Origin: a virus
Direction: 5' to 3' (one strand)
Virus record (IMG/VR): IMGVR_UViG_3300006802_000469
Location: 1-26,424 of that record
DNA length: 26,424 bases
The position numbers and the translations under genes were made by a program. The notes beneath the pieces are model-generated. The model was not told the DNA's origin. It saw only the letters and a list, made by a program, of their open reading frames with translations, and did no database searches. Below are positions 17,228-24,343 of this stretch, piece by piece. Each line of letters starts with the position of its first letter. Position 1 is the first letter of the stretch.

Positions 17228-17258
17228 GCCTCGGTGCTTCGGCATCGGGGCTTTTTTT
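17228..17258 (+). terminator. Intrinsic terminator after the first early gene
   Basis: GCCTCGGTGC and GCATCGGGGC form a 10-bp stem (two G-U pairs) around a TTCG loop, followed by seven T (17252-17258). A textbook rho-independent terminator on the plus strand. Confidence 0.92.
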
Positions 17259-17526: not shown

Positions 17527-17538
17527 AAGGAGAACCAC
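17527..17538 (+). promoter_or_regulatory. Shared leader AAGGAGAACCAC, copy 1
   Basis: Ribosome site and spacer before the DUF932 gene. GGAGAACCAC is the exact complement of the loop at 23805-23814. Confidence 0.75.
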
Positions 17539-17539
17539 T

Positions 17540-18403
17540 ATGAATGATATGACAACAGTACAGATCATCGAAAACGAATGGTCATTCCCTGTAGAAACAG
17601 TGAACCTAACAGCAAGCAAGGTCGATGACTGTAACTTGTACGATGTGCCTACATCTATGGCACAAGCAATCATGCGTACAGATACCAATCAAATTCTTGG
17701 CGTTCATGGCTCTAAATACAAAGCAATCAAGCATGATGATGTAGTTAACTCTGTGCTTGATGCCGTAAAGCAATCGTCTGTATCTAATGATTACGAAACA
17801 AAAATCGAAATCTTTGACAACGGTGCTAAGTTACGCGGCACGATAGACTTCAATGATCTGACTGTTGAACCAGCAGTAGGTGACTACGTAAAGTTCCGCG
17901 TTCAGTTCTTCAACTCATATGATAGTAGCTGGGCGTTTCAACAATCAGCTTTTGGCCTACGCTTATGGTGTCTGAATGGATGTACACATTCTGATACTGT
18001 AGCTAATACATGGGCAAAGCATACAACCAACGTCAATGTAGAAGGCAGTTCAAGCAAGATCAAAGCTGGCTTGGAATCATTTTTGCAAACACCAGACATT
18101 TACAAGTCGTGGATGTCAACGCATGTCGATGATGAAATGGCTGAAATGTTCTTCAAGCATAGCATGTGCCGTGTACCTAACAAAACAAGCACATTCAAAT
18201 GGAATGAACGCATGTTAGATGCACTCATGTCATGCTGGTACAGCGACAAGTCTAAGCTAGGCTCAAACAAATGGGCTTTATACAATGCTTGTACCTATTG
18301 GGCTAGTCATACCAGTGAGTCACGTTCACCAGCTAATACACAACGGTTGCGTGACAATCAGCTAGCCAAGGTATTCAAGAAAGCTAACTGGCATAGTGTT
18401 TAA
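17540..18403 (+). CDS. DUF932 family protein
   Basis: A 287-residue protein with the DUF932 layout: an N-terminal part ending LGVHGSKYKAIKHDDV (the typical G-x-x-x-x-Y-x-x-x-x-x-x-D/E), a central YVKFRVQFFNSYDSSWAFQQ, then LRLWCLNGCTHSD, matching the conserved R-x-x-C-x-N-G. Members are common on plasmids and phages next to replication or recombination genes, but their activity is not established. It is well expressed by appearance (strong ribosome site, regular codons) and is followed by a stable hairpin at 18410-18453, which may set it apart from the downstream genes. Confidence 0.85.
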   Translation: MNDMTTVQIIENEWSFPVETVNLTASKVDDCNLYDVPTSMAQAIMRTDTNQILGVHGSKYKAIKHDDVVNSVLDAVKQSSVSNDYETKIEIFDNGAKLRGTIDFNDLTVEPAVGDYVKFRVQFFNSYDSSWAFQQSAFGLRLWCLNGCTHSDTVANTWAKHTTNVNVEGSSSKIKAGLESFLQTPDIYKSWMSTHVDDEMAEMFFKHSMCRVPNKTSTFKWNERMLDALMSCWYSDKSKLGSNKWALYNACTYWASHTSESRSPANTQRLRDNQLAKVFKKANWHSV

Positions 18404-18466: not shown

Positions 18467-18476
18467 GGGAGAACCA
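18467..18476 (+). promoter_or_regulatory. Shared leader GGGAGAACCA, copy 2
   Basis: Ribosome site before the gene at 18479. It matches nine bases of the GGAGAACCAC leader. ATG 18479 has better spacing (7 nt) than ATG 18476 (4 nt). Confidence 0.7.
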
Positions 18477-18478
18477 TG

Positions 18479-18688
18479 ATGGAAATATCATTTATCAATC
18501 AAGTTAGAGAAGTGCAACGATCATTGGCTTTGCTCAACGAACGTGCGTCAGAGGATCAATCGCAATTCAATTATCAAATACAGCAAGCGATGTGGTCTAT
18601 AGATAGAGTCGCGGCAACATATGATGAAGTTTTATATAGAGATGCGAATGAAGATGATAATTATCGCCCACCTTTGAAGGAGGTTTAG
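18479..18688 (+). CDS. small hypothetical helical protein
   Basis: A 69-residue protein, MEISFINQVREVQRSLALLN at the start, helical with a Gln-rich middle and an acidic end (YRDANEDDNYRPPLKEV). No family recognised. The preceding leader belongs to the GGAGAACCA set. It ends 2 nt before the next gene, whose AAGGAGG lies inside this gene's end, so the two are read together. Confidence 0.6.
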   Translation: MEISFINQVREVQRSLALLNERASEDQSQFNYQIQQAMWSIDRVAATYDEVLYRDANEDDNYRPPLKEV

Positions 18689-20492: not shown

Positions 20493-20683
20493 AGTACAGA
20501 GACAAGTCTGGATTCCCGAATCCATTCACTGTAGTTAGAGATGTGCTGTTCTATAAACGCAGGACAGGCACACCAAAAACATTAGTAATCTTTGATGGCG
20601 ATGTGTTCGCAGAAAAGATTGCACCATTATTATTGGAGAACCACAATGTCATTTCTACTGATGGCGAGGGCAATCAAGTCTGA
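20321..20683 (+). CDS. PDDEXK nuclease, Holliday-junction-resolvase-like
   Basis: A 120-residue protein matching the Hjc-type layout: KGDYHERRFVEWL with Glu13, LSGALGGEYSGDII with Asp43, and VVEVKYRDKSG with Glu56-x-Lys58, the three catalytic parts of a PD-(D/E)XK nuclease. This family cuts branched DNA such as recombination intermediates. The start is ATG 20321 with GAGG 7 nt upstream. A TTG 18 nt earlier was rejected. It works naturally with the exonuclease and annealing proteins downstream, to resolve recombination or replication junctions before packaging. The end overlaps the replication gene by 38 nt. Confidence 0.75.
   Translation: MASKSRAKGDYHERRFVEWLKALGFKAKRQPLSGALGGEYSGDIIWEVKGNPMVVEVKYRDKSGFPNPFTVVRDVLFYKRRTGTPKTLVIFDGDVFAEKIAPLLLENHNVISTDGEGNQV
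20635..20644 (+). promoter_or_regulatory. Shared leader GGAGAACCAC, copy 3
   Basis: Lies inside the nuclease gene and fixes the start of the replication gene at ATG 20646. All ten bases complement the loop at 23805-23814. Confidence 0.75.
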
Positions 20684-21314
20684 TATACCTGACTGCTATG
20701 CCAAATGGCTAATGGTCGTACTAGCTGACCATGCCAATGAAGATACTCATGAGTGCTGGCCTAGCCTAGCTAGGTTATCTGATCGCACACAGATGAGCGT
20801 ACCAACTATAACTAGAAAACTTAACTGGCTTGAAGAACAGGGGCTAGTAACTAGAGTGCGTGGATCTAATCAGCGATCAACTTTGTACACCATTTTCCCT
20901 ATTGCAGAAAGCAACACCACTGTTGCACACAGAAACACCACTGTTGCAGAGAGAAACACTAACCTATCAACTAAACTATCAACTAAAAAGAAGAAGGCGG
21001 TGCCAGAAGATTGGTTGCCGAGTGAGGAACTAAAGCAGTCTATCGATCTTAAGCTACAGGAGAACCAAGACCATGAGTATGAAACGAATCAATTCTGTTG
21101 TCACCACGCCAGCAAAGGAAGCACATTCGTCAACATCGACCTCGCTTACAGGGGCTGGTGCTATCGAGCCTTTAACTGGCGAGCAGATAGAGCAGGGTCT
21201 GGCAAGGCTACTGGAACTGGCAAGTCCACACGAGGTAGACAGAAGGCTTCTCATTTCGCTGGAATCGCACACGGGCTATCCAGTAAGAGAAATAAGCAGG
21301 ACGAGGTTCACTGA
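20646..21314 (+). CDS. O-type replication initiation protein
   Basis: A 222-residue protein: MARAIKSDIPDCYAKWLMVV, then ADHANEDTHECWPSLARLSD and a winged helix (QMSVPTITRKLNWLEEQGLV), the N-terminal layout of phage replication proteins that bind the origin. The C-terminal part VPEDWLPSEEL, then NQFCCHHASKGSTFVNIDLA and YRGWCYRAF, resembles the H-x-A-x-G-x-x-F-x-x-x-x-x-A-x-R-x-W segment of O/DnaT-like proteins. The last 40 or so residues look unconserved. The gene overlaps the next by 242 nt in another frame. It would open the origin and bring in host helicase. No phage polymerase is seen. Confidence 0.7.
   Translation: MSFLLMARAIKSDIPDCYAKWLMVVLADHANEDTHECWPSLARLSDRTQMSVPTITRKLNWLEEQGLVTRVRGSNQRSTLYTIFPIAESNTTVAHRNTTVAERNTNLSTKLSTKKKKAVPEDWLPSEELKQSIDLKLQENQDHEYETNQFCCHHASKGSTFVNIDLAYRGWCYRAFNWRADRAGSGKATGTGKSTRGRQKASHFAGIAHGLSSKRNKQDEVH
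21058..21068 (+). promoter_or_regulatory. Shared leader AGGAGAACCAA, copy 4
   Basis: Inside the replication gene. Nine bases match the shared leader, and it sets the start of the next gene at ATG 21073. Confidence 0.7.
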
Positions 21315-21708
21315 TACAGATTATCAGACCATCGTTCAACGCTACGAGATTACATGCACCGACATAGATGGCATAGATAGGGCTATAACCGCCGTTAGAA
21401 AGGCACTGGTGCCGCTTCCAAGGAATCAGATAGAAGATCAGCTAACCATGCTTGCAACGGTTGTGGTGAAGCCTTCTATGGAGAGTTCAGAAGATCAGCT
21501 AGTGCGAATAGAATCATTAGCTAGTTTATTGCATGAGTATCCAGCTGACATTGTACTCTATGCAATAGAGCGAGTGACCAAGACATCCAAGTTTTGGCCT
21601 TCGTTCGCTGAGTTTTATCAGCACATCGATTGGATGTTGGCAAAACGTAACCTGATGTTAAGAGCATTGGAGAGTAAAAGGGTTGCGCTTACTGCACAGT
21701 TGCAGTAG
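21073..21708 (+). CDS. possible helicase-loader-like replication protein
   Basis: A 211-residue protein: a low-complexity Ser/Thr start, then a helical segment (LTGEQIEQGLARLLELASPH) and a C-terminal part with PADIVLYAIERVTKTSKFWP and SFAEFYQHIDWML. The second block resembles phage proteins in which KFWPSxAEL precedes a helix. These often lie next to the initiator. Function is not established. A loader or partner for the initiator is inferred from the neighbours. The first 242 nt are shared with the end of the replication gene in a different frame, and both readings look like real protein. Confidence 0.5.
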   Translation: MSMKRINSVVTTPAKEAHSSTSTSLTGAGAIEPLTGEQIEQGLARLLELASPHEVDRRLLISLESHTGYPVREISRTRFTDTDYQTIVQRYEITCTDIDGIDRAITAVRKALVPLPRNQIEDQLTMLATVVVKPSMESSEDQLVRIESLASLLHEYPADIVLYAIERVTKTSKFWPSFAEFYQHIDWMLAKRNLMLRALESKRVALTAQLQ

Positions 21709-21720
21709 AATGTTTCAGTA

Positions 21721-21732
21721 AAGGAGAACCAC
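21721..21732 (+). promoter_or_regulatory. Shared leader AAGGAGAACCAC, copy 5
   Basis: Ribosome site before the exonuclease gene. The full ten-base complement of the loop at 23805-23814. Confidence 0.75.
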
Positions 21733-21734
21733 AC

Positions 21735-22568
21735 ATGGAACGCAAAGGTTTTATTGGCGGTAGCGATATGCGCCGCATCATGGATGGCGATTGGACATCG
21801 CTATGGGAAGAAAAGACAGGCAAGGTAGAGCCTGTTGATCTGTCAGATAACCTAGCAGTACAGCTAGGCACAGAGACAGAACACTTTAACAAGCGTTGGT
21901 TTGCCAAACAACACACCACATTAAAAGTTGAAACTATTGTTGCTGGTCATCATGGCGTTGGCAACGGCCTAACCAAAGAAATGAATTGGGAAGGCGTACC
22001 ACTCAAAGGTTCAGTAGACGGATTTATACATACTGATCGCAAATATTTTGACGAGATCATTGAGTGCAAACACACCTACGATATGAACAAGATGGAGGCA
22101 TGTCTGCAAATGTACATGCCGCAGATGCAGTTCTATATGTGGGTGCATCAGGCCAAAGGCTGTTACCTATCAGTTATCTTTGGCAATCGCAGATGGGAAT
22201 CTGTCTATGTCACTAAGGATTGGGACTACATCCACAAGATGCAAGTTCACCTAACTGAGTTCTGGAGGCTTGTCAGAGATGACACACGCCCTTTCGCAGA
22301 TGAGCAGATACCGCCTGTATCTATAGACAAAATCAAAGTTGATGGCCTAGTACGCAGAGATGCGTCATCTGATAACGAGTTCATCAGCAGATGCCATGAC
22401 TACATTGAACATGAGCCAAATGCCAAGCTGTTTGATTCAGCCAAGTCTGAACTAAAAGCTATGGTTAGTAACGATGAGCGAGAAGTTTACTGTGACCTTC
22501 TCACCATCAAGCGCGACAAGCGCGGATCACTTCGTGTCACAGTTAACAAGGAGAACCAAGATGTCTAA
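21735..22568 (+). CDS. YqaJ-type recombination exonuclease
   Basis: A 277-residue protein with lambda-exonuclease/YqaJ features: GFIGGSDMRRIM at residues 5-16, QLGTETEHFNKRWF (44-57), GSVDGFI (92-98, Asp95), IIECKHTY (108-115, Glu110 and Lys112) and MPQMQFYMW (128-136). These give the PD-(D/E)XK catalytic set. The enzyme digests one strand of a DNA end to leave single strands for annealing. The next gene, overlapping by 8 nt, is a Rad52-like annealing protein, the usual partner, so the pair is a phage recombination system. Confidence 0.85.
   Translation: MERKGFIGGSDMRRIMDGDWTSLWEEKTGKVEPVDLSDNLAVQLGTETEHFNKRWFAKQHTTLKVETIVAGHHGVGNGLTKEMNWEGVPLKGSVDGFIHTDRKYFDEIIECKHTYDMNKMEACLQMYMPQMQFYMWVHQAKGCYLSVIFGNRRWESVYVTKDWDYIHKMQVHLTEFWRLVRDDTRPFADEQIPPVSIDKIKVDGLVRRDASSDNEFISRCHDYIEHEPNAKLFDSAKSELKAMVSNDEREVYCDLLTIKRDKRGSLRVTVNKENQDV
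22549..22559 (+). promoter_or_regulatory. Shared leader AGGAGAACCAA, copy 6
   Basis: Inside the end of the exonuclease gene. It sets the annealing protein start at ATG 22561. Nine bases complement the loop at 23805-23814. Confidence 0.7.
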
Positions 22569-23037
22569 GGATAATCAGGTTAAGGATACACTAAGCCTAT
22601 GGAATAAAGTTTCCAAGTCAGACCCTAAGTACCTAAAGAAAGTATCATTCGGGTCAAGATCGTTTACAGCTATTGATCCACAGTATCAAGTGCGTAGCGC
22701 AACAGAAGCGTTCGGACCTATAGGACATGGATGGGGCTGGTCAAGCAACACCCGCTTTGTAGATGTAAGCAATGGTGATACAGCCGTTATAGCTGACGTA
22801 ATGATATGGACTGTAAACAGAGATAACTGTTTTGGACCTTTCTCTGGATGCAGAAAGTTCTTTGACTCTGCCAAAGGCAGGATGGCAGAGGACGCACCCA
22901 AGATGGCAATCACCGATGGTCTTACCAAGGCTATGTCACATCTAGGATTCAATGCCGATGTGTTTCTTGGCGAGATGGATGGCAACAAATACGCCGCCGA
23001 TTCAAAGGCTGGTAAGAAATCTGTAGGAGAATGGTAA
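22561..23037 (+). CDS. Rad52-like single-strand annealing protein
   Basis: A 158-residue protein: WNKVSKSDPKYLKKVSFGSR, IDPQYQVRSATEAFGPIGHG with WGW following, and a C-terminal KMAITDGLTKAMSHLGFNAD then VFLGEMDGNKY, the conserved end block of Rad52/Sak-type annealing proteins (K-x-A-x-T-D-G-L-x-K-A-x-x-x-L-G-F-x-A-D-V). It anneals complementary strands exposed by the exonuclease. The start follows the shared leader and overlaps the exonuclease stop. The long frame upstream of 22561 was rejected. The stop forms TAATG with the next gene. Confidence 0.75.
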   Translation: MSKDNQVKDTLSLWNKVSKSDPKYLKKVSFGSRSFTAIDPQYQVRSATEAFGPIGHGWGWSSNTRFVDVSNGDTAVIADVMIWTVNRDNCFGPFSGCRKFFDSAKGRMAEDAPKMAITDGLTKAMSHLGFNADVFLGEMDGNKYAADSKAGKKSVGEW

Positions 23038-23390
23038 TGTTTTACGGAAATCAAATAGCATCTTTAGATGCAAAGCTAATGGACATAGATCGAAAGTTAG
23101 AGAAACTCATATGGTCTATGAAAGAGCCTGTAAAGGAACAGGTTAAACCTAAACAAAAAAGCAAGCCTAAGTATTCCAAGCCATTTATAGATAGAATAGC
23201 TGGCAGATACAAAAGCAAACACGATCTAGTACAAGAAACAGGTTTAACATATCAAACAATTACTACTTATATCAGACACGCAAGAGCCAATGGTCACAAT
23301 ATTGTTAGGCGAAGAATAAAATTAAAGAGACCACATTTACCAAGAGGTTTTTGTATGGTTTCACAATATAAATTAGTAAAGGATAAATAG
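23037..23390 (+). CDS. coiled-coil plus HTH DNA-binding protein
   Basis: A 117-residue protein: MFYGNQIASLDAKLMDIDRK starts a coiled-coil helix (residues 5-30), then a Lys/Pro linker, then a helix-turn-helix (KHDLVQETGLTYQTITTYIR) with a basic C-terminus. ATG 23037 (GGAG at 23026-23029, 7 nt spacing, TAATG overlap) is preferred over ATG 23031. Likely binds DNA. Its place between annealing protein and SSB points to a recombination or regulatory job. No named family. Confidence 0.6.
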   Translation: MFYGNQIASLDAKLMDIDRKLEKLIWSMKEPVKEQVKPKQKSKPKYSKPFIDRIAGRYKSKHDLVQETGLTYQTITTYIRHARANGHNIVRRRIKLKRPHLPRGFCMVSQYKLVKDK

Positions 23391-23391
23391 C

Positions 23392-23790
23392 ATGAACGAT
23401 TACGATAACACTAACAGAGGCGCGGCCTTCAAGCCGTTTCCAGAGCAACAGTTTATCCTGCAAGGTAAGCTAAACATCATGGGTGATGAAGGTCAGGTAG
23501 CACTCATCATGGCTGAGTCTAAGGATGGCAGTAAGCGCATCGAAGTATATCAACGTGCTGGTGTTCTATTTGCAAACAAAGATAAGAACGATGAAAACAA
23601 ACAGCCAGATTATAGCGGACCGCTTGACGGTCTGCATCAAGACTGGCGCATTGCGGCATGGAAAGAAATGAAAGGTGACAATGCTTATATGTCACTCAGA
23701 GTTTCAGAAGTGCAAAAGAAACAAGAGGCAGAGGCAGAGTCGCAAGATGAACCATCTAGCAAACAGATTGATGATGATATACCATTCTAA
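23392..23790 (+). CDS. single-stranded DNA-binding protein
   Basis: A 132-residue protein: an N-terminal beta-rich part (FILQGKLNIMGDEGQVALIM, then RIEVYQRAGVLFANKD) fitting an OB-fold, an acidic linker (KKQEAEAESQDEPSSKQ) and the final IDDDIPF, identical over DDDIPF to the tip of E. coli SSB. SSB coats exposed single strands and its tip docks repair proteins. It is the last gene of the early operon, after the exonuclease/annealing pair. The fold is not a close match to host SSB by eye, so the call rests mostly on the tip and context. Confidence 0.7.
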   Translation: MNDYDNTNRGAAFKPFPEQQFILQGKLNIMGDEGQVALIMAESKDGSKRIEVYQRAGVLFANKDKNDENKQPDYSGPLDGLHQDWRIAAWKEMKGDNAYMSLRVSEVQKKQEAEAESQDEPSSKQIDDDIPF

Positions 23791-23792
23791 TC

Positions 23793-23822
23793 TGCGATAG
23801 TTAGGTGGTTCTCCCTATCGCA
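23793..23822 (+). ncRNA. 3' hairpin whose loop is complementary to the shared early leader
   Basis: TGCGATAG (23793-23800) and CTATCGCA (23815-23822) form an exact 8-bp stem around loop TTAGGTGGTTCTCC. GTGGTTCTCC (23805-23814) is the exact reverse complement of GGAGAACCAC, the ribosome-site leader of the genes at 17540, 20646 and 21735, and nine bases match those at 18479, 21073 and 22561. In the plus-strand transcript this is an anti-Shine-Dalgarno loop, possibly a 3'-end small RNA that damps early translation. An alternative pairing (TTAGGT with ACCTAA, 23860-23865; GCGAT with ATCGC, 23872-23876) would open the stem. Confidence 0.6.
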
Positions 23823-23824
23823 TA

Positions 23825-23858
23825 GCGGGTGAGCAGTCGTACCATTCTGCTCATCCGC
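23825..23858 (+). terminator. Strong hairpin at the convergent operon junction
   Basis: GCGGGTGAGCAG (23825-23836) pairs with CTGCTCATCCGC (23847-23858), 12 bp with one G-U that fits the plus-strand RNA. No T-run follows, so termination may need Rho, or the hairpin may protect the 3' end of the early mRNA. Confidence 0.65.
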
Positions 23859-23861
23859 GAC

Positions 23862-24314
23862 CTAAATAGGGATCGCCAACAACTCAAGTCTAGCAATCAA
23901 ACGATCTGCTCTATTGGTTACTTGCTTATAGTATCTACTATCTTTTAACTCAGCCCCAGCAGTTTCATAATCCTCTGCTTCTACAGCCGCAATAAATTTC
24001 TTAAACTTAGACATGCGCGGCCTACCCATATTAAACATGAGATTGCATAGAATGTGATGTAGTTCATCACTCATGCTATCCCATGTCGGGTAGAGTATCT
24101 TGCAATCTTCTATAGTTACAGCAATGTCCAGCGCAAATAGCTGACGCACACGTTCCTCAGAGACATCTGTACCTACAGGCTGACCATACTCAGGCTCACC
24201 TTCCAAAATTAGATGACCCACACCACAAGTTTCCAGACCTAAATGATCTAAATACACAGAATTAACACAACCCTCATCATCAGATATTTCCTGACGCAAT
24301 ATATCTATGTTCAT
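23862..24314 (-). CDS. endolysin, T4-type lysozyme (GH24)
   Basis: A 150-residue lysozyme. Numbering from ATG 24314, the catalytic set is Glu14, Asp23 and Thr29 in EISDDEGCVNSVYLDHLG and LETCGVGHL, with the same 9- and 15-residue spacing as Glu11, Asp20 and Thr26 of T4 lysozyme. The C-terminal part has CNLMFNMGRPRMSKFKKFIA, matching the second lobe of the family. It cuts peptidoglycan to release phage. No signal peptide is seen, so the holin must open the membrane. GAGGA lies 9 nt before the ATG. The TTG start at 24329 was rejected. Confidence 0.88.
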   Translation of the reverse strand: MNIDILRQEISDDEGCVNSVYLDHLGLETCGVGHLILEGEPEYGQPVGTDVSEERVRQLFALDIAVTIEDCKILYPTWDSMSDELHHILCNLMFNMGRPRMSKFKKFIAAVEAEDYETAGAELKDSRYYKQVTNRADRLIARLELLAIPI

Positions 24315-24343
24315 TTTTTTAATCCTCAACTAATATATACATG

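Follow-up and report, generated by a model that had tools for sequence, protein, structure and literature searches.

A hairpin at the 3' end of a phage early operon carries a loop complementary to the leaders of six genes of the same operon and may act as an RNA brake on their translation

RNAs from the 3' ends of operons can repress the operons from which they derive, as described for OppZ and CarZ of Vibrio cholerae (PMC7398697; PMC9438474). In Sinorhizobium, AbcR1 and AbcR2 repress their targets through motifs carried in loops, as was shown by compensating mutations (PMC8844928). In phage T4, the RegA protein shuts off a set of early genes at the level of translation (PMC3014915), and the c4 RNA of P1 and P7 and the sar RNA of P22 prevent translation by base-pairing at, or close to, a ribosome-binding site, the complementary sequences of c4 probably lying in loops (PMC12197685). 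Here we describe an operon-end hairpin in an uncultured virus and its relatives and compare it with these systems.

The early gene block of the window, by which we mean the whole 26,424-nucleotide stretch of viral DNA that was analysed, extends along the plus strand between 17540 and 23790 and contains a DUF932 gene, small open reading frames (ORFs), and genes for an O-like replication initiation protein, a YqaJ/RecE-like exonuclease, an annealing protein, and a single-strand DNA-binding protein (SSB). A strong plus-strand intrinsic terminator (GCCTCGGTGC-TTCG-GCATCGGGGC-TTTTTTT) is present just 5' of the block, at 17228 to 17258. Directly past the end of the block, a phage lysozyme gene (minus strand, 23862 to 24329; Pfam Phage_lysozyme, 2.5e-8) runs head-on towards it. 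The sequence GGAGAACCA has exactly six copies on the plus strand of the window, at 17529, 18468, 20635, 21059, 21723, and 22550, each of them 2 to 8 nt 5' of an early-gene start (17540, 18476 or 18479, 20646, 21073, 21735, and 22561, respectively). The copies at 17529, 20635, and 21723 have the ten-base form GGAGAACCAC, and the other three leaders are nine bases long. All six are exact matches. The ten-base form precedes the DUF932 gene (leader 17529 to 17538, gene 17540 to 18403; Pfam DUF932, 1e-15), the O-like replication initiation gene (leader 20635 to 20644, start at 20646; PHROG replication initiation, 6e-21), and the exonuclease gene (leader 21723 to 21732, gene 21735 to 22568; Pfam YqaJ). 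The nine-base form precedes a small early ORF that starts at 18476 or 18479 and ends at 18688 (leader 18468 to 18476), the early gene at 21073 to 21708 (leader 21059 to 21067), and the single-strand-annealing (ERF/RAD52-like) gene at 22561 to 23037 (phrog_7838, 3e-35, with annealing-protein homologues), the leader of which (22550 to 22558) lies within the 3' end of the exonuclease gene. GGAGAAC was absent upstream of the minus-strand ORFs of the window (0 of 27 examined). The SSB gene, the last of the operon (plus strand, 23392 to 23790; phrog_18154, single-strand DNA-binding protein), has the leader AAAGGATAAATAGC (23375 to 23391), which lacks the target site and is not complementary to the hairpin loop.

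The 71 nt between the SSB and lysozyme stop codons contain two hairpins on the plus strand, at 23793 to 23822 and 23825 to 23858. The first, 30 nt long, closes the early operon directly 3' of the SSB gene and is predicted to fold into an exact 8-bp stem with arms TGCGATAG (23793 to 23800) and CTATCGCA (23815 to 23822), enclosing the 14-nt loop TTAGGTGGTTCTCC (23801 to 23814). Within that loop, as in the loops of relatives, lies an anti-Shine-Dalgarno motif: the anti-leader GTGGTTCTCC (23805 to 23814), identified by complementarity, fold, conservation, and co-variation, is exactly complementary to the six early leaders, over ten bases in three of them and nine in the other three. An earlier note on this DNA had reported this hairpin and its match to the leaders, and both the coordinates and the complementarity proved exact when rechecked. 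On the minus strand of the window GGAGAACCA has a single match, at 23806 to 23814, which lies in the hairpin loop. When one mismatch was allowed, the search for GGAGAACCA returned 10 matches against 3.9 expected, a number that none of 100 shuffles reached. When pairing energies of the loop were scanned along both strands, the best plus-strand targets included all six leaders but other sites as well.

The second hairpin has a 12-bp stem and a 10-nt loop, lies at the position usually taken by a terminator in relatives, and is followed 4 nt further on by the lysozyme stop codon; it has no T-run, so that a classical terminator is not established there. A 70-nt transcript (23791 to 23860) is predicted to form both the anti-leader hairpin and the 12-bp second hairpin, at −35.2 kcal/mol. 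In an alternative fold the loop can pair with the downstream sequence ATAGGGATCGCC if transcription enters the convergent lysozyme gene, and on such read-through transcripts it could thus be hidden. The sequence CTCCCTAT of the hairpin (23801 to 23880 region) can also pair with ATAGGGA inside the lysozyme gene, again only on read-through transcripts. A search of Rfam with the hairpin stretch found no family at gathering score, the best weak matches being unrelated snoRNAs, and Rfam models gave no homology in sequence and structure to the alpha-r15/AbcR family.

The best explanation of this arrangement, to which we assign a probability of about 0.78 in view of the sequence evidence here and in relatives, is that the 3' end of the operon gives rise to a base-pairing RNA and that this RNA keeps selected cistrons of the same operon from being translated. 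The terminal 70 nt of the early mRNA (23791 to 23860) would fold into an RNA with two hairpins. The loop of the first hairpin would be an antisense "key" that fits GGAGAACCA(C), the ribosome-binding leader marking the genes for DUF932, the small ORF, replication initiation, the 21073 product, the exonuclease, and the annealing protein. With transcription of the operon this 3' end would accumulate, either as a released mRNA fragment or still attached to the message, and would pair with the leaders, covering their Shine-Dalgarno sequences and lowering translation of the marked genes. Since the loop spans the Shine-Dalgarno core and the bases that follow it, it would be expected to compete with the 30S subunit, and SSB and the late genes would escape because the mark is missing from them. 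Pairing in the cell, repression, a separate small RNA, and a role in feedback or early shut-off are all predicted features.

Relatives were fetched by their annealing protein, and the sequence past the SSB stop codon was read at each locus, giving 85 distinct junctions from 186 loci and a further 29 from 94 loci (about 280 related viral loci). Of the 54 matches that an exact search of viral contigs for the loop DNA gave, most fell in coding regions of unrelated phages and were set aside. The nearest relatives share every base of the element, although their neighbouring proteins are only 75 to 99% identical. In distant relatives the stem sequence differs each time and still pairs perfectly or nearly so (GGCAAG/CTTGCC, GTGATGAG/CTCATCAT, GCGGCTGG/CCAGCCGC, GGCTTGG/CCAAGCC, GCAAGGG/CCCTTGC, TTCTAGGG/CCCTAGAA, and GTCAGG/CCTGAC), and the loop, NN-GTTCTCC or a close variant, is kept despite the unrelated stems. 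Hairpins found right past the SSB stop codon include GGCAAG and CTTGCC around TTGATTAGTTCTCCG, GGCTTGG and CCAAGCC around a loop ending in AGTTCTCCTTT, and TTCTAGGG and CCCTAGAA around CCGTTCTCCT. The element lies at the 3' end of the regulated operon both in the window and in relatives and shifts outward when a gene is added. Where an extra gene follows SSB, the element follows that gene (CATAAGA and TCTTATG around TTGTAGTTCTCCCTAG in L161; TTCAC and GTGAA around TTGTTCTCCCT in L177) or sits in the loop of an intrinsic terminator (GGCGGCGTCAG and CTGATGCCGCC-TTTTTT around AGTTCTCCATGCTC in L162, in L188, and, nearly so, in L151); in these five lineages, which make up most of those with leaders but seemingly no element, the element is found one gene later, at the real end of the operon, within the terminator hairpin or immediately ahead of it. 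No strong stem surrounds the anti-leader in lineages such as L150, L154, L173, and L074. In L036 to L039 (from 4678 onward in L036), TATCTCC and ACCTCCC lie past SSB, apparently unpaired and without a clear hairpin. Read by eye, the TATCTCC/ACCTCC keys of these lineages (L036 and L037 were also included in the energy contrasts) suit GGAGATA and GGAGGT leaders, and the key CTCCTCC of L207 and L212 suits GAGGAG leaders.

In relatives the anti-leader often lies directly 5' of an intrinsic terminator or within the terminator loop, and a T-run (TTTT) follows the element in about 20 of 28 listed junctions. This arrangement bears on three other explanations. The opposite strand might be the functional one, a late leftward transcript past lysozyme displaying the leader mimic GGAGAACCACC as a decoy; the lysozyme gene does converge on the hairpin, and the reverse complement folds too. 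In L022 to L035, L044 to L052, L019, L040, and L168, however, the gene that comes next has plus-strand orientation and is preceded by a T-run terminator of that strand, and the plus-strand RNA alone is common to all relatives. Given the many relatives with same-strand genes and terminators downstream, we rejected the decoy, which we consider to have a negligible chance of being correct. Pairing might instead take place only in cis, the 3' end of the polycistronic mRNA binding leaders of the same molecule and affecting translation, stability, or Rho access with no separate small RNA. The element invariably closes the transcript that bears its targets and has no evident promoter of its own, and an mRNA with six leaders that could use just one loop at a time would undergo a weak, stochastic damping. 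A single loop cannot, however, serve six leaders simultaneously, and the hairpin of most relatives precedes an intrinsic terminator or sits in its loop, which is the layout of a 3'-derived small RNA. The co-variation tests described below do not discriminate between cis and trans pairing; on the points above we consider an exclusively cis-acting element unlikely, though a serious candidate.

The third explanation is that the hairpin is a plain terminator, or a terminator with a processing hairpin, and that the match reflects a U/C-rich loop and a common type of Shine-Dalgarno sequence, with no pairing. The element is located where a terminator is expected, CTCC complements any strong Shine-Dalgarno sequence, and several neighbouring terminator loops contain CCTCC, but in relatives the hairpin is usually distinct from the terminator. 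As a separate observation, a second anti-Shine-Dalgarno string (CCTCC or GTTCTCC) is often found in the loop of the terminator that follows (L055, L057, L136/L137, L051, L052, L042, L198, and L242), so that some of these RNAs may have two seeds.

What counts further against the plain terminator is that the match exceeds GGAG and follows the leaders of its own lineage. The loop GATTAGTTCTCC is found with leaders GGAGAACTAA/TAC (L014 to L016), TTTTGGTTCTCC with GGAGAACCAAA (L017 and L018), AGTAGTTCTCCTTT with AAAGGAGAACTAC (L044 to L052), TTTGATTAGTTCTCCTT with AAGGAGAACTAA(T) (L059), and GGTGGTTCTTCTTA with TAAGGAGAACCAC (L022 to L035), where the single difference is absorbed by a G-U pair. The predicted duplex energy of the element with its own leaders was better than that of all 100 self-shuffles in 21 of 22 representatives. 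Own duplexes were also better than foreign ones in a permutation over lineages (p<5e-5), and, among leaders with GGAGAAC, the base that follows matched the loop at a frequency of 0.75 for own and 0.35 for foreign pairs over 15 loop types (p=4e-5) and of 0.64 and 0.31 over 21 loop types (p=4e-5); these statistics treat lineages as exchangeable, with no correction for phylogeny, and their significance is overstated as a result. For the six newly fetched loop types alone the co-varying base gave p=0.5, five of them being near-identical neighbours that form one small group with mixed leaders. Position −1 before GGAG was given no weight, as it reached p=0.003 in one set and 0.06 to 0.10 in a stricter one. 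The co-variation evidence least exposed to the phylogeny objection comes from neighbours on the ERF+SSB tree, among which pairs with different loops have different leaders too; the own-pairing contrast was −3.8 kcal/mol for the window and L145, −3.9 for L067 and L141, and −5.5 for L192 and L203; L222 and L198, whose loops differ, preferred their own partners too, and pairs with equivalent loops gave a contrast of about zero. Complementarity of the element to translation initiation regions of its own mRNA is thus joined to co-variation, at the uncorrected significance given above and with p=0.5 for the six new types taken alone. The co-variation between loop and leader that the earlier note had proposed to look for in related junctions is present on these terms, and the pattern that would have contradicted it, a leader kept beside a loop lost or changed without compensation, is mostly absent, although in several lineages (L067, L056, L154, and L325) the match is limited to the GGAGAAC core. 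Since the match is kept in relatives in which loop and leader have both changed, the hairpin is very probably an RNA brake on early protein synthesis.

Element and leaders also occur together. A GGAGAAC leader precedes the exonuclease gene in 47 of 52 cases with the element and 8 of 56 without it, the annealing-protein gene in 37 of 47 and 4 of 56, the replication gene in 16 of 18 and 2 of 10, and the DUF932 gene in 16 of 26 and 0 of 22. AAC follows GGAG in about half of the leaders of phages with a GTTCTCC-type element past SSB and in few leaders of phages without one, a contrast with p=3.5e-11 in the first set and a weakly positive p=0.012 in a second set of newly fetched lineages. GGAGAAC leaders and the element are gained and lost jointly from lineage to lineage, and the phages with plain terminators (L064 to L078) are without stereotyped leaders. 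We rejected the simple terminator reading on this co-occurrence together with the co-variation, and we regard a match arising without pairing, whether or not a processing hairpin is added, as improbable.

SSB, the gene that adjoins the element, is exempt, with a GGAGAAC leader in only 3 of 49 cases with the element and 1 of 61 without it. The SSB leader differs from those of the neighbouring genes, and in many relatives it is very uniform (AAGGAGCCAGAAGC). Certain bacterial small RNAs activate their targets, and pairing could in principle stabilise or activate the marked genes, by unfolding leader structure, for instance, or by shielding the leaders from RNases up to the point at which ribosomes push the RNA aside; that SSB, presumably required in high amount, is unmarked would fit such a role. 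The loop, however, covers GGAG itself and would compete directly with the ribosome, and the loops of AbcR1/2 pair with the same part of the leader and repress (PMC8844928), which makes activation very doubtful and leaves repression as our preferred reading.

Among cultured phages, the closest by terminase (63%), Pelagibacter phage EXVC031P Hodr, shares the convergent layout of early and late blocks with the window phage but has plain AAAGGAGG-type leaders and no anti-leader element, and it offers a useful natural comparison. Reading of the leaders and 3' ends of HTVC035P, Lederberg, C72C1, and MW202484 likewise revealed no element; this reading of cultured phages left out the Sulfitobacter pCB2047-A and Vibrio VA-RY-3 regions. 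Bins assigned to Rhodobacteraceae/Rhodobacterales contain two annealing-protein relatives, and an Opitutae bin contains one; this is a hint of the host and nothing firmer because phage contigs are often mis-binned.

Compared with the described systems, the element is most like OppZ and CarZ in that an RNA from the end of an operon pairs with its own mRNA and inhibits translation, an outcome that is predicted here, and it is like OppZ in that one cistron is spared, OppA there and SSB here (PMC7398697). OppZ acts at one intergenic site, whereas the single phage loop is matched by a leader that recurs ahead of about six cistrons; and RNase E processing, Hfq dependence, and Rho effects are traits of OppZ and CarZ, whereas the phage element is known from sequence alone (PMC7398697). 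With AbcR1/AbcR2 (alpha-r15) and NfeR1 of alphaproteobacteria it shares a loop-exposed anti-Shine-Dalgarno sequence aimed at many ribosome-binding sites, but these RNAs are independent genes that use the general motif CUCCUCCC against scattered host mRNAs (PMC8844928); the phage motif is extended, co-varies with the leaders of its own phage, and is located where the target operon ends. Its probable role resembles that of RegA, a single factor opposing the ribosome at many early initiation regions, except that RegA is a protein and the phage factor would be an RNA from the target transcript itself (PMC3014915). Like c4 and sar it would be a phage RNA that blocks translation by pairing at the ribosome-binding site, but those RNAs have a single target, ant, and serve immunity, whereas here several replication and recombination genes share the target site (PMC12197685). 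We found no phage system of this layout in the open-access literature, which agrees with the earlier note's statement that none was described, except that antisense RNAs against a single ribosome-binding site, c4 and sar, do exist (PMC12197685). The element is therefore an undescribed variant of known principles: the 3'-end-derived autoregulatory RNA, the anti-Shine-Dalgarno loop, and the phage antisense RNA. What appears new is that one key fits many locks within one operon and that key and locks seem to have co-evolved lastingly across many uncultured phages. The note's reading of the locus is supported in its main part, and we infer from the same sequences repression by the RNA, whether free or mRNA-bound, and a role as a timer.

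We give even odds to the broader proposal that these elements form a widespread class of operon-end RNAs in phages that has not been described before. In such a class, a key would co-evolve with locks on recombination, replication, and DUF932 genes but not on SSB, so that each completed early transcript would supply its own repressor and time the early-to-late transition, and the whole would act as an RNA counterpart of T4 RegA. The finding suggests a reason why early leaders are uniform and the SSB leader differs in such phages, and it offers a signature by which any phage genome can be scanned, namely, a leader repeated before several genes and its complement at the end of the operon; the parts are small and easily tested in reporters. 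If the proposal is true, marine phages, whose hosts are probably alphaproteobacterial, bring a whole set of early genes under the control of a single RNA made from the end of their own transcript, in a simple circuit in which the dose of the regulator would follow the dose of the transcript.
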